From Cenarchaeum sp. SB0675_bin_21 (GTDB taxonomy: Archaea > Thermoproteota > Nitrososphaeria > Nitrososphaerales > Nitrosopumilaceae), in contig VYCS01000005.1 of the NCBI GenBank assembly GCA_009843815.1, positions 1-64,000 of the forward strand: a DNA stretch of 64,000 nucleotides. Direction: 5' to 3'. A program made the position numbers and the translations under genes. This document shows positions 1 through 51,946 of the stretch, one piece after another. Each line of letters opens with the position of its first letter. Position 1 is the stretch's first letter. The notes beneath the pieces were generated by a model. It worked only from the letters and a program-made list of their open reading frames with translations. It searched no databases and was not told where the DNA came from.

Positions 1-545
1 GCCAGATTGCCGGCAGGCGTTACATTGTACGGATCAGTAAGATCAAGTATCTGGATGCCACCGTCATATTCTGCAACGACGGCGTATGTGCGGCCATCTG
101 CCACAAGTGTGGCAATGGACAGCGCACCGGACAAGCGTAAGTCATCATTATCCGTTATACTTCCAAGAGAGGTGATACCATATGGGTGTGTTATATCGAG
201 TATCTGGACACTATTGTCACGGTATGATGTCACAGCCGCATATGTGCGACCATCTGACTCAAATAATGCTATGTCAAATGCGCCTTCGAGGGACAACGCA
301 TCACCCTTGGAGATGCTGCCCGCATACCCTATATGGATATCACCAGCGAAGATTCCGACATGCAGAGCCTGTGTGACAGATGCCATGTCTGCATAAGCGT
401 ATTGGGATGGCCATGTGAATGTAGATGCCTCGGACTCATGCCCCACGCCCAACAATCCAGTGGTGGGCTCCATTGAGAGTGCCGATACGGTCAATACTAC
501 AAGGGTTCCTACTGCAAGCACGTGGGTTCCCGCACCTACACACAT
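1..545 (-). CDS. LVIVD-type secreted beta-propeller protein, 3' part cut by window start
   Basis: The reading frame is open on the minus strand from an ATG at 545 to the window edge. The N-terminus starts MCVGAGTHVLAVGTLVV and has a hydrophobic core that looks like a signal peptide. Two propeller-type repeats follow, with motifs such as GRTYAAVTSYRDNSVQILDI and a second copy ending IQILDLTDPYN; these match the repeats of the plus-strand protein at 5512-8196. LVIVD repeats form beta-propeller blades in extracellular proteins. The ATG overlaps the tnpB stop (TAATG), and the first ~14 codons lie inside the right end of the tnpB element at 503-2022. The native start may therefore have been replaced by element sequence. 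The ligand is unknown. Confidence 0.75.
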   Translation of the reverse strand, partial: MCVGAGTHVLAVGTLVVLTVSALSMEPTTGLLGVGHESEASTFTWPSQYAYADMASVTQALHVGIFAGDIHIGYAGSISKGDALSLEGAFDIALFESDGRTYAAVTSYRDNSVQILDITHPYGITSLGSITDNDDLRLSGALSIATLVADGRTYAVVAEYDGGIQILDLTDPYNVTPAGNL

Positions 546-2022
546 TACACATCACTCCAGAGGACGACGATACATGATGTATATCGTTCCCCAGTCTGTG
601 CTTGACGCTTCTCAGGGGAGCTGATGCAAGAACCCTCCACGTCCAGGCGCCCCTCAACATGGGCGCTGCCAGTATTAGCTGGCAATGTTACATCACGTAA
701 CTTTAGTTGGCCATGCGTGGCCCCCGGGCCGAGTTTCTGCAGCCCTGCATCCTCTATGTTTGAGCCCGCATTGCAGTCGGCATGACTCGTATGGCCACAC
801 CGTTTACACAAGAACTTTCTGTCATCCCGGTTATCCTTGTGTGTATAACCGCACGAGCAGCACCGTTGGCTTGTATACGCCGCTGCAACCCAAATTATCT
901 CTCCAGCCAACTTGTACGCCAACAGTAATGCCAACAGCCCCCAGCACTGCTCCAGGATGGCCTTATTGAGACCAGATTTCTGCGCAACGTTTTTGCCGGG
1001 GTTTTCTTCCGTACCTTTGGCGGACTTTGCCATGTTTTGTATAGGAAGTTTCTCAAAGGCTGCATGTGTGGTGCTGTCCGATATAACGCGTGATATTTTA
1101 TGCGCGGTGGTCTTTCGAATGTTTGCAGCTTTGCGTTTGTTCTTGGCAGCCCTCTTAGCGGCTTTCACCCACCGTCGAGAACCAGGTTTACGATTCGTAT
1201 AGTCGGGTTTCTGCCTGCGTGACGCTATCTTTTGTGCCTTAGAGGCTGTTTTTTCGGCGTTGTTCATGCGGCGTGCCACCTTTTCGGGTATTATCATCAC
1301 ACAGTCAGGTGTGGCCACATTACCGACATTCCGGTCTATACCAATAACAGTCGGTTCCGTCACGGTTGGCTTCTCATCGGGTATATCACAGGATATGGTA
1401 ATCCTCCACCCGCCATCCGGTAGTTGAAACAGTTGGGCCGTCTTGTATCGGTAATTCAAGACGGGAAACTCCCGCGACAGTTTAACCTCGCCCATCTTGG
1501 CTATCTTGATTGTACGTGTATCGGTGAAGCGCGCTTGACCAATAGTGCCATCATGCGTTATTGTAAACGGGATGGAGATGTGACCTCCATATTTCTTAAA
1601 GTGCGGTTCACCAAACTCCGCCTTAGGTTTGATGTTGACAGCCTTCAGCTTCTCTGTTTCCACATATTGGTCATAATGCCTGCCCAAGTCATGTAATATT
1701 TGGCGCGTCACCCCGGATATGGATTGACGCATCCAACGCGGACCTGAATGGTTGCGCAAGTCCGTATACCACGCGTTTATCCTACCACGCGTAGTGTTGA
1801 CCCTCCCAGCTCGACGGTACTCCTCCTTGAAGGTTTCCAATAGTTTGTTATACACGTACCTGTCCATGCCGGCCTGTCTGGCCAACATCTCCTTCTTGAA
1901 CCCTTTACGGAATCTAACGCCGAATGTGTATGTACGTAGTACCATTAGCTTATAGTACGGTCCACATGTTTAAAAAGATAGTTGAGGTGTGATATATGGC
2001 ACCCGTCCTTGCGGGAGGAACC
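503..2022 (-). mobile_element. tnpB element with GGGTTCCT-type inverted ends
   Basis: The element is about 1520 bp and carries only a tnpB gene. Read inward, its two ends are GGGTTCCTACTGCAAGCACG (503 end) and GGTTCCTCCCGCAAGGACGG (2022 end), about 17 of 21 matching positions. The right boundary is supported independently: the sequence is shared with the copy at 51669-51938 up to GGAACCC and diverges immediately after. The flanks TACTACAA and TACTAGTC share only TACTA, so the target duplication is imperfect. The element lies directly after the stop codon of the beta-propeller gene at 2025 and runs into the start of the LVIVD gene. No tnpA is present. Confidence 0.7.
545..1945 (-). CDS. tnpB: TnpB-like RuvC nuclease
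   Basis: This 466-aa protein has the TnpB layout: an N-terminal helical domain (YVYNKLLETFKEEYR), RuvC-I with Asp in IGIDRNVG near residue 204, RuvC-II with Glu in FEKLPIQNM near 300, a four-Cys zinc ribbon (CCSCGYTH ... CKRCGH) and RuvC-III with Asp in HADCNAGSN near 390. All three acidic residues are present, so it appears intact. TnpB proteins are RNA-guided DNA nucleases whose guide RNA overlaps the 3' end of the gene. About 79 residues follow the last catalytic Asp; this tail is probably coding sequence that doubles as guide-RNA scaffold, because the same DNA is kept in the tnpB-less copy at 51.8 kb. The stop TAA overlaps the ATG of the LVIVD gene. Confidence 0.9.
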   Translation of the reverse strand: MVLRTYTFGVRFRKGFKKEMLARQAGMDRYVYNKLLETFKEEYRRAGRVNTTRGRINAWYTDLRNHSGPRWMRQSISGVTRQILHDLGRHYDQYVETEKLKAVNIKPKAEFGEPHFKKYGGHISIPFTITHDGTIGQARFTDTRTIKIAKMGEVKLSREFPVLNYRYKTAQLFQLPDGGWRITISCDIPDEKPTVTEPTVIGIDRNVGNVATPDCVMIIPEKVARRMNNAEKTASKAQKIASRRQKPDYTNRKPGSRRWVKAAKRAAKNKRKAANIRKTTAHKISRVISDSTTHAAFEKLPIQNMAKSAKGTEENPGKNVAQKSGLNKAILEQCWGLLALLLAYKLAGEIIWVAAAYTSQRCCSCGYTHKDNRDDRKFLCKRCGHTSHADCNAGSNIEDAGLQKLGPGATHGQLKLRDVTLPANTGSAHVEGRLDVEGSCISSPEKRQAQTGERYTSCIVVLWSDV

Positions 2023-8220: not shown

Positions 8221-8228
8221 ATAAGTAT
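8221..8228. repeat. 8-bp target duplication, left copy
   Basis: ATAAGTAT directly precedes the left inverted repeat at 8229. The same 8 bp follow the right inverted repeat at 9705-9712. A perfect 8-bp duplication flanking inverted repeats indicates insertion by a DDE-type transposase. Confidence 0.85.
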
Positions 8229-9704
8229 GGGAATTATATAGATAAGAACACAGTCGCAGCTGCGCGCTTGTCTCTTTTCTGACGGCTCTTCTGTATGGAG
8301 CGGAGCATGGCGGGTGTTGGCTTGTAGCCCTCCTTGTGCCCCGGCCGTCTTAGGACGACGTTCCCCGCCGCCCTATACAGGATATTCCAGGCGGCATTGA
8401 CATCCGCATGAAACACTCTGGTACAATTAGTACAAATGAATTTATCGCGTGATATGCGCGACTCGGCATCCACCGTACCGCACACATGGCACGTCTGGCT
8501 TGTATATTTGGCCATCACCCCATATAGTGGGATGCCTTCCCTCTCGCATCGCTGCGCCAACTTCCGTAGAAATTCACCAAGTCGGTTCTCCCGCATTGAA
8601 CGGTTCATGGCGCGTTTGTAATTCCCGCCATGTGTCGTCATATCTTTTATCGATAATATCTCGGCTATGACGGCATCTACTCCTTGTACGATACGCGATA
8701 CGGTCTGGTTTATGGTGTTTACGGCGATGCCATCAGCCTTCCTGTATAGTTGTTTAATTTGGTCGTTCAATACGCCCCACTTCCGGCCATGCCGTACCTT
8801 GTGGTCACGAAGACTCTTTAGCGCATCTATCTCCAGCAGGATGGCTCTATGGCGTGTGTTGTGTATTGTAACGTTGCCATTTGTGTCGACAGTGACTGCC
8901 AGGTGTTTGCCGCCCACATCAATACCCCGCATTATACCAGTATTGCGGTGTGGTTCGACCGGTACGCGCACGGCTATGTGCAGCTCAAACATATGGTCTG
9001 ACGGCTTTGTATGCTTGTCCACCCGTTTGGTGACATCAACTATCTTGAATGAGCGCATGTCCCATGATGTATTGATGGGCTTGGCGGTCTCCACCGTACC
9101 ATATCCGGGGATATGTACTGTATGGCTATCTTTCCGTACAGGCGGTGTAACGGAACTCAATATGATGCGGCCGTCTTTGCGGCGGTATGGCGCGTGGCCG
9201 GAGTTGTCATCTACAACTCTTCTACATGCGATAGAGGCATCCTGTATGGCGCCCCTACCAAACGATGTGGGGCACTCGCGCAGCCATGTATGTTTGGCGC
9301 GCCACCCCGTAAGCTGTTTGTGCATGCCGTACTTTAATGCCCTCTTTGACGGCCCAAAATCATATGTATGGTAGTCATCGTCCAGCATACCTGATGTAAA
9401 ATCCAGCTTGCCCGGCAGTTTGAAGGGCTGCAGGATGTCCACTACCACCCTCTCCATATATTCGCCACCAAACAAATACTCTGATACGGCGCGGTTGTAC
9501 ACATATCTTGACGCATGATTCGTGCGGTGCGCCCACTCTGCAAACAACACATCCCTTCGTAGCGGTACCTTGATTATCCGTATCATAAGGTGTAATACGG
9601 TATACTGGTATTTAAGGAGTAGGGTGGCGCATAGGCATGAAATCCATGGTTTTAGCATTAACCCCCAAAACCTCCGCAGGTGTGTTCTAATCTATATAAT
9701 TCCC
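8229..9704 (-). mobile_element. tnpB element with terminal inverted repeats and 8-bp target duplication
   Basis: The element is 1476 bp. The ends are 24-bp inverted repeats with one mismatch, 8229-8252 and 9681-9704, both starting GGGAATTATATAGAT when read inward. ATAAGTAT flanks both sides. The only gene inside is tnpB, whose stop codon at 8234-8236 lies within the left inverted repeat. IS200/IS605 and IS607 elements, the usual carriers of tnpB, have neither long inverted repeats nor target duplications. No transposase gene is present, so mobility would need one supplied in trans. Sister ends occur at 29483-30920 and 41353-41782. Confidence 0.85.
8234..9586 (-). CDS. tnpB: TnpB-like RuvC nuclease
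   Basis: The start at 9586 gives MIRIIKVPLRRDVLF; an upstream ATG at 9658 adds only an unlikely extension. The protein is about 450 aa. RuvC-I is MRGIDVGGKHLAVTVD, RuvC-II is VIAEILSIKDMTTHG, the zinc ribbon is CHVCGTVD ... CTNCTRVF, and RuvC-III is HADVNAAWNIL. The catalytic Asp, Glu and Asp and the four zinc Cys are all present, so it appears active. It is clearly divergent from the tnpB proteins at 545-1945 and 29497-30825. The stop codon lies inside the element's terminal repeat, five bases from the end, so any guide RNA transcribed with the gene would run straight into flanking DNA. Confidence 0.9.
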   Translation of the reverse strand: MIRIIKVPLRRDVLFAEWAHRTNHASRYVYNRAVSEYLFGGEYMERVVVDILQPFKLPGKLDFTSGMLDDDYHTYDFGPSKRALKYGMHKQLTGWRAKHTWLRECPTSFGRGAIQDASIACRRVVDDNSGHAPYRRKDGRIILSSVTPPVRKDSHTVHIPGYGTVETAKPINTSWDMRSFKIVDVTKRVDKHTKPSDHMFELHIAVRVPVEPHRNTGIMRGIDVGGKHLAVTVDTNGNVTIHNTRHRAILLEIDALKSLRDHKVRHGRKWGVLNDQIKQLYRKADGIAVNTINQTVSRIVQGVDAVIAEILSIKDMTTHGGNYKRAMNRSMRENRLGEFLRKLAQRCEREGIPLYGVMAKYTSQTCHVCGTVDAESRISRDKFICTNCTRVFHADVNAAWNILYRAAGNVVLRRPGHKEGYKPTPAMLRSIQKSRQKRDKRAAATVFLSI

Positions 9705-9712
9705 ATAAGTAT
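9705..9712. repeat. 8-bp target duplication, right copy
   Basis: ATAAGTAT follows the right inverted repeat and matches 8221-8228 exactly. Confidence 0.85.
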
Positions 9713-9756
9713 CTATATTCCTTAAAACATAAAACAGAGCTTTACCTTTCTATATT

Positions 9757-29474: not shown

Positions 29475-29482
29475 ACAGCGTT
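29475..29482. repeat. 8-bp target duplication, left copy
   Basis: ACAGCGTT precedes the left inverted repeat at 29483. An identical copy follows the right repeat at 30921-30928. Confidence 0.85.
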
Positions 29483-30920
29483 GGGAATTATCTACCTTAC
29501 TGAACATACGTAACATACGCGTACATTCCCAGGTGCTTCATGACGCTTGATGTTTTGGGTCGATTGCACGCTTGATTCTCACGCCGCCGTCTGGCGTCCG
29601 GAACTGCACAAACAGGTGGCTTCCGGGTCCGGCCCATTTCACGCCTTTCGAGGGCTATTCCTTCCCCCGCGGGAACCTCTCGTCTGGTTCCCCGTTGTAT
29701 GATGTTTACCGACGCATTGCCGTCGGCGTTTGCTACATGCCCACACCCCATACACTTGAACATCTCCCCATTTCGGTTCTCCTTGGATATATAGCCGCAT
29801 ATACTGCACTCCTGGCTCGTGTGTTTTGGATTCACTTCTACTACACGGATGCCCAGCCGCTCTGCGATAATGCGTATCTTTCGCAGTATTGCATAATGCC
29901 GAATGAACCGCATACCGCGATTCATACCCTTCTTGTGCCTGCCACCGCGCCTGCTCATGGCCTCAAGGTTGAGCTGCTCGACATATATTACATCCACGCC
30001 CTCGCATATCTTCTTGGCTAGAAGCCACTCCGCATACTCGTGGTCGTTCGCATTACCCTGATTGTACTTTTCTCGTTTATGTTTAATTTTACACGTCGAG
30101 TTGGAGTGTTTGTTGCGGTGTGAGATGGTACGGCGCGTCTCATCATTCCATGTACGGTTCGTGCGGAATGCGGTTGCCGTGTCGTACGATATTATACACG
30201 AAGTGTTGTGGTCGAATTTGCACACGACGGTCGGATTTGTTATCCCTCTGTCTATGCCGGCAACAACACCGGTCTTGGCGCGCCGTTCGGGTACCGGCAC
30301 GTCATATGTTATGTGCAGCCGGTAGATATGGTCACACGACTTGACGTGCCCCCACGACTTTGGTGTTACACATACCAAACGGAAAGACCTTGAGCCATAC
30401 AGCCAGTTGTGTGGAAATTGATATGGTTGCTCCTCGCACAACTCAACAACACCAAGGCCCGGCAATGACGCGTGCCTGTTGTCCACAAATCGCGGCTGTA
30501 CATCACATGATACTGCCTTTGTATTATCGCGCTTTCTGGCGCGGAAACTCAGCTCGCCGTTGCCGTATTTGTTCGAGACATCCGCAGCAGTGCGGGCCTG
30601 ATGGATGGCCGTATTTTGGTATATGCGCTCTACTGTTTGCAGTCACTGCACGGAACGCCTCACCTTGGTGAACTCTCTGGAGAGGTCATATGTAGTAAGT
30701 GTGGGGTTAGTAAGCAGCCGCTCCACGGCCCAGTTGTACACGAACCGTTGTGAGTCCCGTATTTTGGATATGTGACGCGCCTGAGAGCGTGTCAGGTCTA
30801 TGCGGAAGCCATGTGATCTATACATACCGCTCTATACACTATAGTACTTTAAAAATCTAACTCATGAGATGGGTTTACAAGTTTGACTGTTTTTAGGTTA
30901 CAGTTATAGGGATAAGTCCC
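29483..30920 (-). mobile_element. tnpB element with terminal inverted repeats and 8-bp target duplication
   Basis: The 1438-bp element has ends that read inward GGGAATTATCTACCTTACTG (left) and GGGACTTATCCCTATAACTG (right), 14 of 20 identical. ACAGCGTT flanks both sides perfectly. It contains one tnpB gene interrupted by a single TGA, with the tnpB stop at 29497 inside the left terminal repeat. The end sequence and organisation match the element at 8229-9704, although the TnpB proteins differ strongly. No transposase is encoded. Confidence 0.85.
29497..30825 (-). pseudogene. tnpB: TnpB-like RuvC nuclease gene with one in-frame TGA
   Basis: Reading from ATG 30825, the frame is open to a TGA at 30643-30645 (codon 61) and continues in the same frame to 29497, 443 codons in all. 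The part before the TGA has the TnpB N-terminus (FVYNWAVERLLTNPTLTTYD). The part after it has RuvC-I (VAGIDRGITNP), RuvC-II (IYVEQLNLEAMS), the zinc ribbon (CSICGYIS ... CMGCGHV) and RuvC-III (NADGNASVNI). Everything except the TGA looks intact. TGA may replace a Trp (TGG) or Arg (CGA) codon. It is either a recent nonsense mutation or a read-through site; a sequencing error cannot be excluded. Confidence 0.85.
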
Positions 30921-30928
30921 ACAGCGTT
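30921..30928. repeat. 8-bp target duplication, right copy
   Basis: ACAGCGTT directly follows the right inverted repeat and is identical to 29475-29482. Confidence 0.85.
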
Positions 30929-41352: not shown

Positions 41353-41782
41353 GGGAATTATCTCCTTAATTCGCAAACTGAAAAAACATGACACCTTTAG
41401 ATAATGTAACACTATATGGTACAAGGGTAGCAAACACATCATAAAGATACTACGATACAAGGTGAGCACATACTCACATGTTACATACGTAGCAATATGA
41501 TGCACTCTGAAGTGAACGCGGACTATGGCATATTGTATAATACAAGTATAGTAGAATGGTCAAGGCGTGCGCAACACAACATCAGACTATACAAGTCGTA
41601 CGACAAGGTCGGACTGGCCTTGCAAGACAAGACACATCTCAGTAGATATATTATATCTCCAGTTACTAGAGACGGGGCTGATGGCGCAGGCGACCCTCAG
41701 CGACATCTTAATAGAGACATCTCTGAATGGCGAACTCACCAACAGATGTATGGTAGTTCTGCGAACTATGTATATGATTCCC
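41353..41782. mobile_element. 430-bp non-autonomous element with GGGAAT ends (MITE-like)
   Basis: The ends, read inward, are GGGAATTATCTCCTTAATTC and GGGAATCATATACATAGTTC, followed by GCA in both; about 19 of 25 positions match. A perfect 8-bp AATAATTT duplication flanks the element. The left end is nearly the same as that of the tnpB element at 29483 (GGGAATTATCTACCTTAC). No tnpB is inside; a 96-codon ORF occupies the right two thirds. It sits between the AK6-like kinase and HMG-CoA reductase genes. Confidence 0.75.
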
Positions 41783-51626: not shown

Positions 51627-51668
51627 ATTCCATCCTTTTTTCCACTGCTTAAATATTTTGCTAAATGA

Positions 51669-51938
51669 GGTTCCTCCCGCAAAGTCAGGTGGTCGCTCTA
51701 AATGGCCCGGATCCGGGCCGCAGTCCGGCCCGAACCGGACATACGGGGGCCGCCGGGATGCGTCTTGGACCGATTTTTTACGAAGTCCCGCCGGAACGGG
51801 GCGGATGAGGGGCAAAAATCCACCCCTGAGAAACGTCAAGCACAGACCGGGGAACGAGATACTTCATGCATTGTCGTCCTCTGGCATGATGTATGATGTA
51901 TTGTAGTGCGGGAACCCCCGTGTTTGCAGTAGGAACCC
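51669..51938 (+). mobile_element. 270-bp tnpB-less element sharing both ends with the 503-2022 element
   Basis: The left end (GGTTCCTCCCGCAA) and the right ~115 bp match the tnpB element at 503-2022. The right part includes the tnpB 3' coding end; the frame still ends CIVVLWHDV against CIVVLWSDV. TAAATGAG occurs on both sides (51662-51669 and 51939-51946), a 7-8 bp target duplication. The retained 3' segment is what a TnpB guide-RNA scaffold would need, so the copy may act as a stand-alone guide RNA locus, or it may simply be a deletion derivative moved by shared ends. The 51669 base belongs either to the duplication or to the end. Confidence 0.8.
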
Positions 51939-51946
51939 TAAATGAG

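Follow-up and report, generated by a model that had tools for sequence, protein, structure and literature searches.

The stretch analysed here, referred to as the window, comprises 64,000 nucleotides at the start of contig VYCS01000005.1 of Cenarchaeum sp. SB0675_bin_21, a member of the sponge-symbiont genus Cenarchaeum whose genome assembly measures 1.61 Mb in 48 contigs, and it carries at positions 8221-9712 a tnpB gene enclosed by terminal inverted repeats (TIRs) and a target-site duplication (TSD). Exactly as the original prediction had described, the TIRs at 8229-8252 and 9681-9704 are inverted copies matching at 23 of 24 positions, and ATAAGTAT stands on both sides of them (8221-8228 and 9705-9712), giving an 8/8 duplication; with the duplication included, the inverted arms reach 32 nt at 91%. 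The 24-mer had no other occurrence within the window (0.00 expected, 100 shuffles). The repeat at 8229-8252 (GGGAATTATATAGATAAGAACACA) lies on the 3' side of tnpB and is termed the right end, that at 9681-9704, on the 5' side, the left end. The proposals that tnpB is the only gene and that it terminates within a repeat were likewise borne out: the stop codon occupies 8234-8236 on the minus strand, inside the right-end TIR, and no transposase is encoded between the repeats, so that the element is non-autonomous.

From its conserved MIRI... start, tnpB (8234-9586, minus strand) encodes a 450-aa protein, the longest open reading frame reaching 9658. A sequence that may act as a TATA-like box (GGTATTTAA on the plus strand; 9608-9618, minus-strand feature) lies upstream and is conserved in an 8-copy alignment. 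The protein matched the profiles of RNA-guided nucleases, namely Cas12f1-like_TNB of Pfam (PF07282, 6e-18) and guided_TnpB of NCBIfam (NF040570, 5e-33, above cut-off), and the RuvC residues D236, E322 and D408 (alignment numbering) were invariant across TnpB families A-C. Among copies of families A and B, dN/dS was 0.11-0.27 even where dS reached 0.95 or more; judged by these ratios, tnpB is under purifying selection and has long been kept functional.

Copies and families of the element

The focal element belongs to family A, of which the window's genome holds at least eight full copies and several more at contig ends. All family-A copies have the right-end TIR in common, and the at least seven further full copies showed 80-93% protein identity and the same ends, so that the repeat and duplication at 8221-9712 are not a product of chance. 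Across copies the ends are conserved (GGGAATTATATACAAAAGTACACA and variants) and the flanks differ, most copies carrying an 8-bp duplication of their own, with ACATCTTA, ATTTGTAA and TACAGAAG as 8/8 examples. Two elements, C28 and C18, were without a matching duplication. For C28 (L011; with L019 and L060), the flanks match the duplications of C15b and C20, two copies cut off within the element by the ends of their contigs, and on this pattern C28 is a product of recombination or mis-assembly between copies. A site without the element, such as the original prediction had suggested looking for, was encountered in the sister genome of Cenarchaeum sp. SB0662_bin_33 (G015): the two flanking genes have relatives there that enclose the homologous spacer, and no element interrupts it.

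Similar architectures surrounded other TnpBs. Family B, whose TnpB is about 30% identical to that of family A, shares the latter's GGGAATTATATA ends, has duplications of its own and occurs in the window's genome and in the third Cenarchaeum genome (G033), and TnpB families only 26-30% identical have GGGAATTATA ends in common. Family C is represented by one copy (TSD GTTCAAAT), and four further families (D-G) possess other inverted repeats. Ends other than GGGAATTATATA were found by a search that did not presuppose an end sequence; it yielded, for other TnpBs of the window's genome, the inverted repeats GGAACTGTCAAAAAGTAGGTACAT, TGGGCTGTGACGTTATCTGCGCG and TGGGCTGGTAACTAAACGTCGCG and the imperfect pair GGTTCCTCCCGCAAGG / GGTTCCTACTGCAAGC, with 8-bp duplications, and it found no ends at the TnpB loci L181, L182 and L195. 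Duplications matched at 7/8 positions or better in 25/31 elements and perfectly (8/8) in 20/31, counts that use the corrected right end of the element at 51669 described below.

Flank motif and putative guide RNA

A G immediately beyond the duplication, on the side of the tnpB 5' end, was present in 14/14 distinct left flanks of family A (P about 1e-9), that of the focal element being the G at 9713 (minus strand), and TTG was found at that position in 5/6 left ends of family D (P about 9e-9). The G was far less frequent in family B (5/12; Fisher 0.001 vs family A) and beside IS1595-family transposase genes, which are discussed below (1/6; Fisher 0.0004 vs family A). At right ends the mirror position was not conserved (C in 4/26), and neither were the duplicated 8 bp among elements. 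Because the motif changes with the TnpB family, occurs on the tnpB 5' side only and stands one duplication away from the end, we read G in family A and TTG in family D as the probable target-adjacent motif (TAM) of the respective nuclease. This is where a TAM would be expected for a guide that begins at the boundary of the element, since the target in the empty site would then consist of the TSD followed by the right flank.

The guide RNA would accordingly be read out across the right end, from a putative omega/re-RNA scaffold formed by the tnpB 3' end and the terminal repeat (8229-8400, minus strand) on into 8228 and below. Rfam gave no match for the putative scaffold region. The right-end alignment contained 10 pairs with two-sided changes, which are confounded by coding constraint, and one GC/CG swap in a predicted stem that includes the terminal repeat. 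As for the proposal of the original prediction that TnpB may enforce retention of the insertion, a motif just outside the duplication that is oriented with tnpB and specific to the TnpB family lends it indirect support.

Alternatively, G and TTG could reflect a target preference of the transposase, which is possible for DDE transposases, and the motif rests on a small sample of 14 and 6 sites. We regard this explanation as unlikely, because a symmetric transposase complex acting on two near-identical repeats should not leave a motif on the tnpB 5' side alone, as the 4/26 count at the mirror position illustrates; moreover, the motif is missing from family B, which has the same ends, and from the IS1595 genes, and family D has a different motif.

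Candidate transposases and proposed mechanism

Among 61 genomes sampled from the family, IS1595-family transposases were detected in three, namely the three Cenarchaeum genomes, and in none of the other 58, and clear element ends were limited to the same three. In the sister species G015, an exact GGGAATTATATA precedes the start of the IS1595 genes L196 and L198 by 35-50 bp, the sequence outside it being unrelated, and close variants of this end accompany the IS1595 genes L211, L200, L206 and L209; the L196 and L200 proteins matched NF033547 (transpos_IS1595, 3e-51) and PF12762 (DDE_Tnp_IS1595). Within the window, a family-B TnpB element (29483-30920, minus strand; an in-frame stop within tnpB; TSD ACAGCGTT, 8/8, at 29475-29482 and 30921-30928) has a left end, GGGACTTATCCCTATAACTGTAACCTAAAA, that can be aligned for 32 nt with those of the IS1595 genes L206 and L209; against L206, 0/2000 shuffles did as well. 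The 8-bp TSD and GG termini of the elements, together with the DDE_Tnp_IS1595 domain in the genus, agree with published features of IS1595 (8-bp TSD, zinc ribbon, DDE domain) and the related Merlin (GG termini) (PMC8101967). Considering the restriction to three genomes, the genes starting at GGGAATTATATA and the left-end match in the window, the missing transposase is most probably of the IS1595 family. The sister-species genes that begin with this terminal sequence thus provide a candidate and, together with the left-end match in the window, support the central claim of the original prediction that a DDE transposase mobilises the ends in trans.

Several other sources of the ends were considered and rejected. 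The IS1595 relic L064 of the window's own genome has different repeats, and loci of the DDE_Tnp_1 type (PF01609) have no matching ends. Matches to the ends were also met in further genera of the Nitrosopumilaceae (L066-L069), but they fall within ordinary genes, have no partner end and are due to chance. No IS256/mutator transposase was found in the three Cenarchaeum genomes, and viral contigs gave no match.

It is also conceivable that a different DDE transposase acts in trans, for instance one of the IS6-like (DDE_Tnp_IS240) transposases, whose genes are intact in both G015 and the window's genome; the IS6 family, too, makes 8-bp duplications. No GGGAATTATATA end and no matching repeat with duplication was found around these loci, however, whereas IS1595 genes start with GGGAATTATATA, and we consider the IS6-like origin improbable. 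Three IS6-like transposases (L085, L087 and L089) have open frames of 310-478 aa with no detectable inverted repeats or duplication and are possibly domesticated. Finally, although IS200/IS605 is where TnpB-only elements are usually placed (PMC3627910), it is highly improbable that the elements derive from IS200/IS605 or IS607 after loss of tnpA, with coincidental repeats and duplications: 20 elements show perfect 8-bp duplications whereas those groups have neither inverted repeats nor duplications, which already refutes the derivation as to end structure, for IS607 as well, and the Y1 transposase of IS200/IS605 (PF01797) was absent from the three Cenarchaeum genomes, with positive controls that worked, the IS607 serine recombinase (PF00239) not having been searched.

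We return to IS1595-type mobilisation in trans, to which, combined with a guide starting at the boundary and restoration driven by TnpB, we assign a probability of roughly three in four. The tnpB gene, set between IS1595-type TIRs (GGGAATTATATA...), would form a non-autonomous transposon that an IS1595-family DDE transposase inserts in trans, producing the 8-bp duplication. The tnpB 3' region and the right-end repeat would supply the guide-RNA scaffold, and the guide would begin at the element boundary, its first 8 nt being the duplicated target bases (the minus-strand reading of 8221-8228). In the empty site, the role of the TAM would fall to the base or bases (G in A, TTG in D) that, on the 5' side of tnpB, adjoin the outer edge of the duplication. 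The corresponding position at the element's own right end holds C in family A and ACC in family D, which would prevent self-cutting. TnpB would then cut an allele emptied by excision, and the element would be restored from the sister copy.

A number of observations weigh against this mechanism. A TAM of a single base is unusual, no motif was seen in family B, and the right-end RNA fold is only modestly better than those of shuffled sequences (z -1.4). Family-A ends resemble those of group-1 IS1595 over the outer 12-14 bp only, the stretch in common with IS1595 left ends in general being the outer 10-14 bp; for no IS1595 copy could both boundaries be placed, the right ends giving none, and the window's own genome retains only IS1595 relics, so that mobility there may be past. 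The ends of families D-G differ and no transposase is linked to them, and intact IS6-like transposases, whose ends could not be placed, occur in the window's genome as well as in G015.

The window contains three further relatives. At 504-2022 (minus strand), a family-D TnpB element with imperfect inverted repeats (GGTTCC...) encloses an intact tnpB (545-1945), with TTG outside the left end and the duplication not preserved. A 430-bp tnpB-less deletion derivative at 41353-41782 has the ends GGGAATTATC / GGGAATCATATA, translated TnpB remnants and an 8/8 TSD (AATAATTT), and has a relative at G000:C46:8925. A 269-bp deletion derivative at 51669-51937 has family-D ends, TTG outside the left end and the 8/8 TSD CTAAATGA (51661-51668 and 51938-51945). 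Elsewhere, a 45-bp palindrome (L057:8098-8142) pairs two GGGAATTATATACATGAGTAAACA-type ends face to face between the near-matching 8-mers GAGTGGAA / GAGTTGAA and, by its structure, is a minimal end-to-end element.

Relation to known systems

The elements resemble IS200/IS605, IS607 and the TnpB-only IS1341 type in having a TnpB with RuvC D/E/D residues and a zinc ribbon, a tnpB 3' end that abuts the right end and a TAM-like motif upstream of the left end. Unlike IS200/IS605 and IS607, they possess 24-bp TIRs and 8-bp duplications, lack a Y1 transposase, and have the duplication between the TAM-like motif and the element. With IS1595 and the eukaryotic Merlin they have in common GG termini, an 8-bp TSD and apparently TIRs of ~24 bp, alongside a DDE_Tnp_IS1595 transposase with a zinc ribbon in the genus; in contrast to these, they carry tnpB and no transposase. 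We found no earlier report of prokaryotic TnpB in TIR/TSD elements in the open-access literature, subscription papers and preprints being outside the scope of the search.

A parallel in design is provided by Fanzor1/Fanzor2* (in eukaryotic DDE transposons, namely Mariner, IS4-like and hAT, and the SfAV Fanzor element), TnpB-family nucleases that likewise travel in TIR/TSD transposons, often non-autonomous ones with the nuclease as the only gene (PMC3627910, PMC10711439). For Fanzor elements, the prediction assigns the TSD to the RNA scaffold (PMC10711439), a role that does not fit here because the TSD is unconserved. Besides this, the present elements differ from Fanzor in their archaeal hosts and TnpBs, their IS1595-type ends and a motif outside the TSD, which suggests that the TSD here would act as guide rather than scaffold. 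On balance we lean slightly towards the broader view that a large share of the Cenarchaeum TnpB repertoire (seven families, at least four kinds of ends) has moved onto DDE-type transposons, with the TSD read as guide and the TAM just outside it, and that the nuclease sets which insertions are retained and in which orientation. The flanks predict G as the TAM of one family and TTG as that of another, and these elements offer natural material for testing the way in which a guide RNA deals with a duplicated target. The occurrence of prokaryotic TnpBs, drawn from several divergent families, in TIR/TSD elements linked to an IS1595 transposase suggests that DDE transposons have captured such nucleases outside eukaryotes too and, if the above view is true, TnpB has solved the duplication problem differently from Fanzor.
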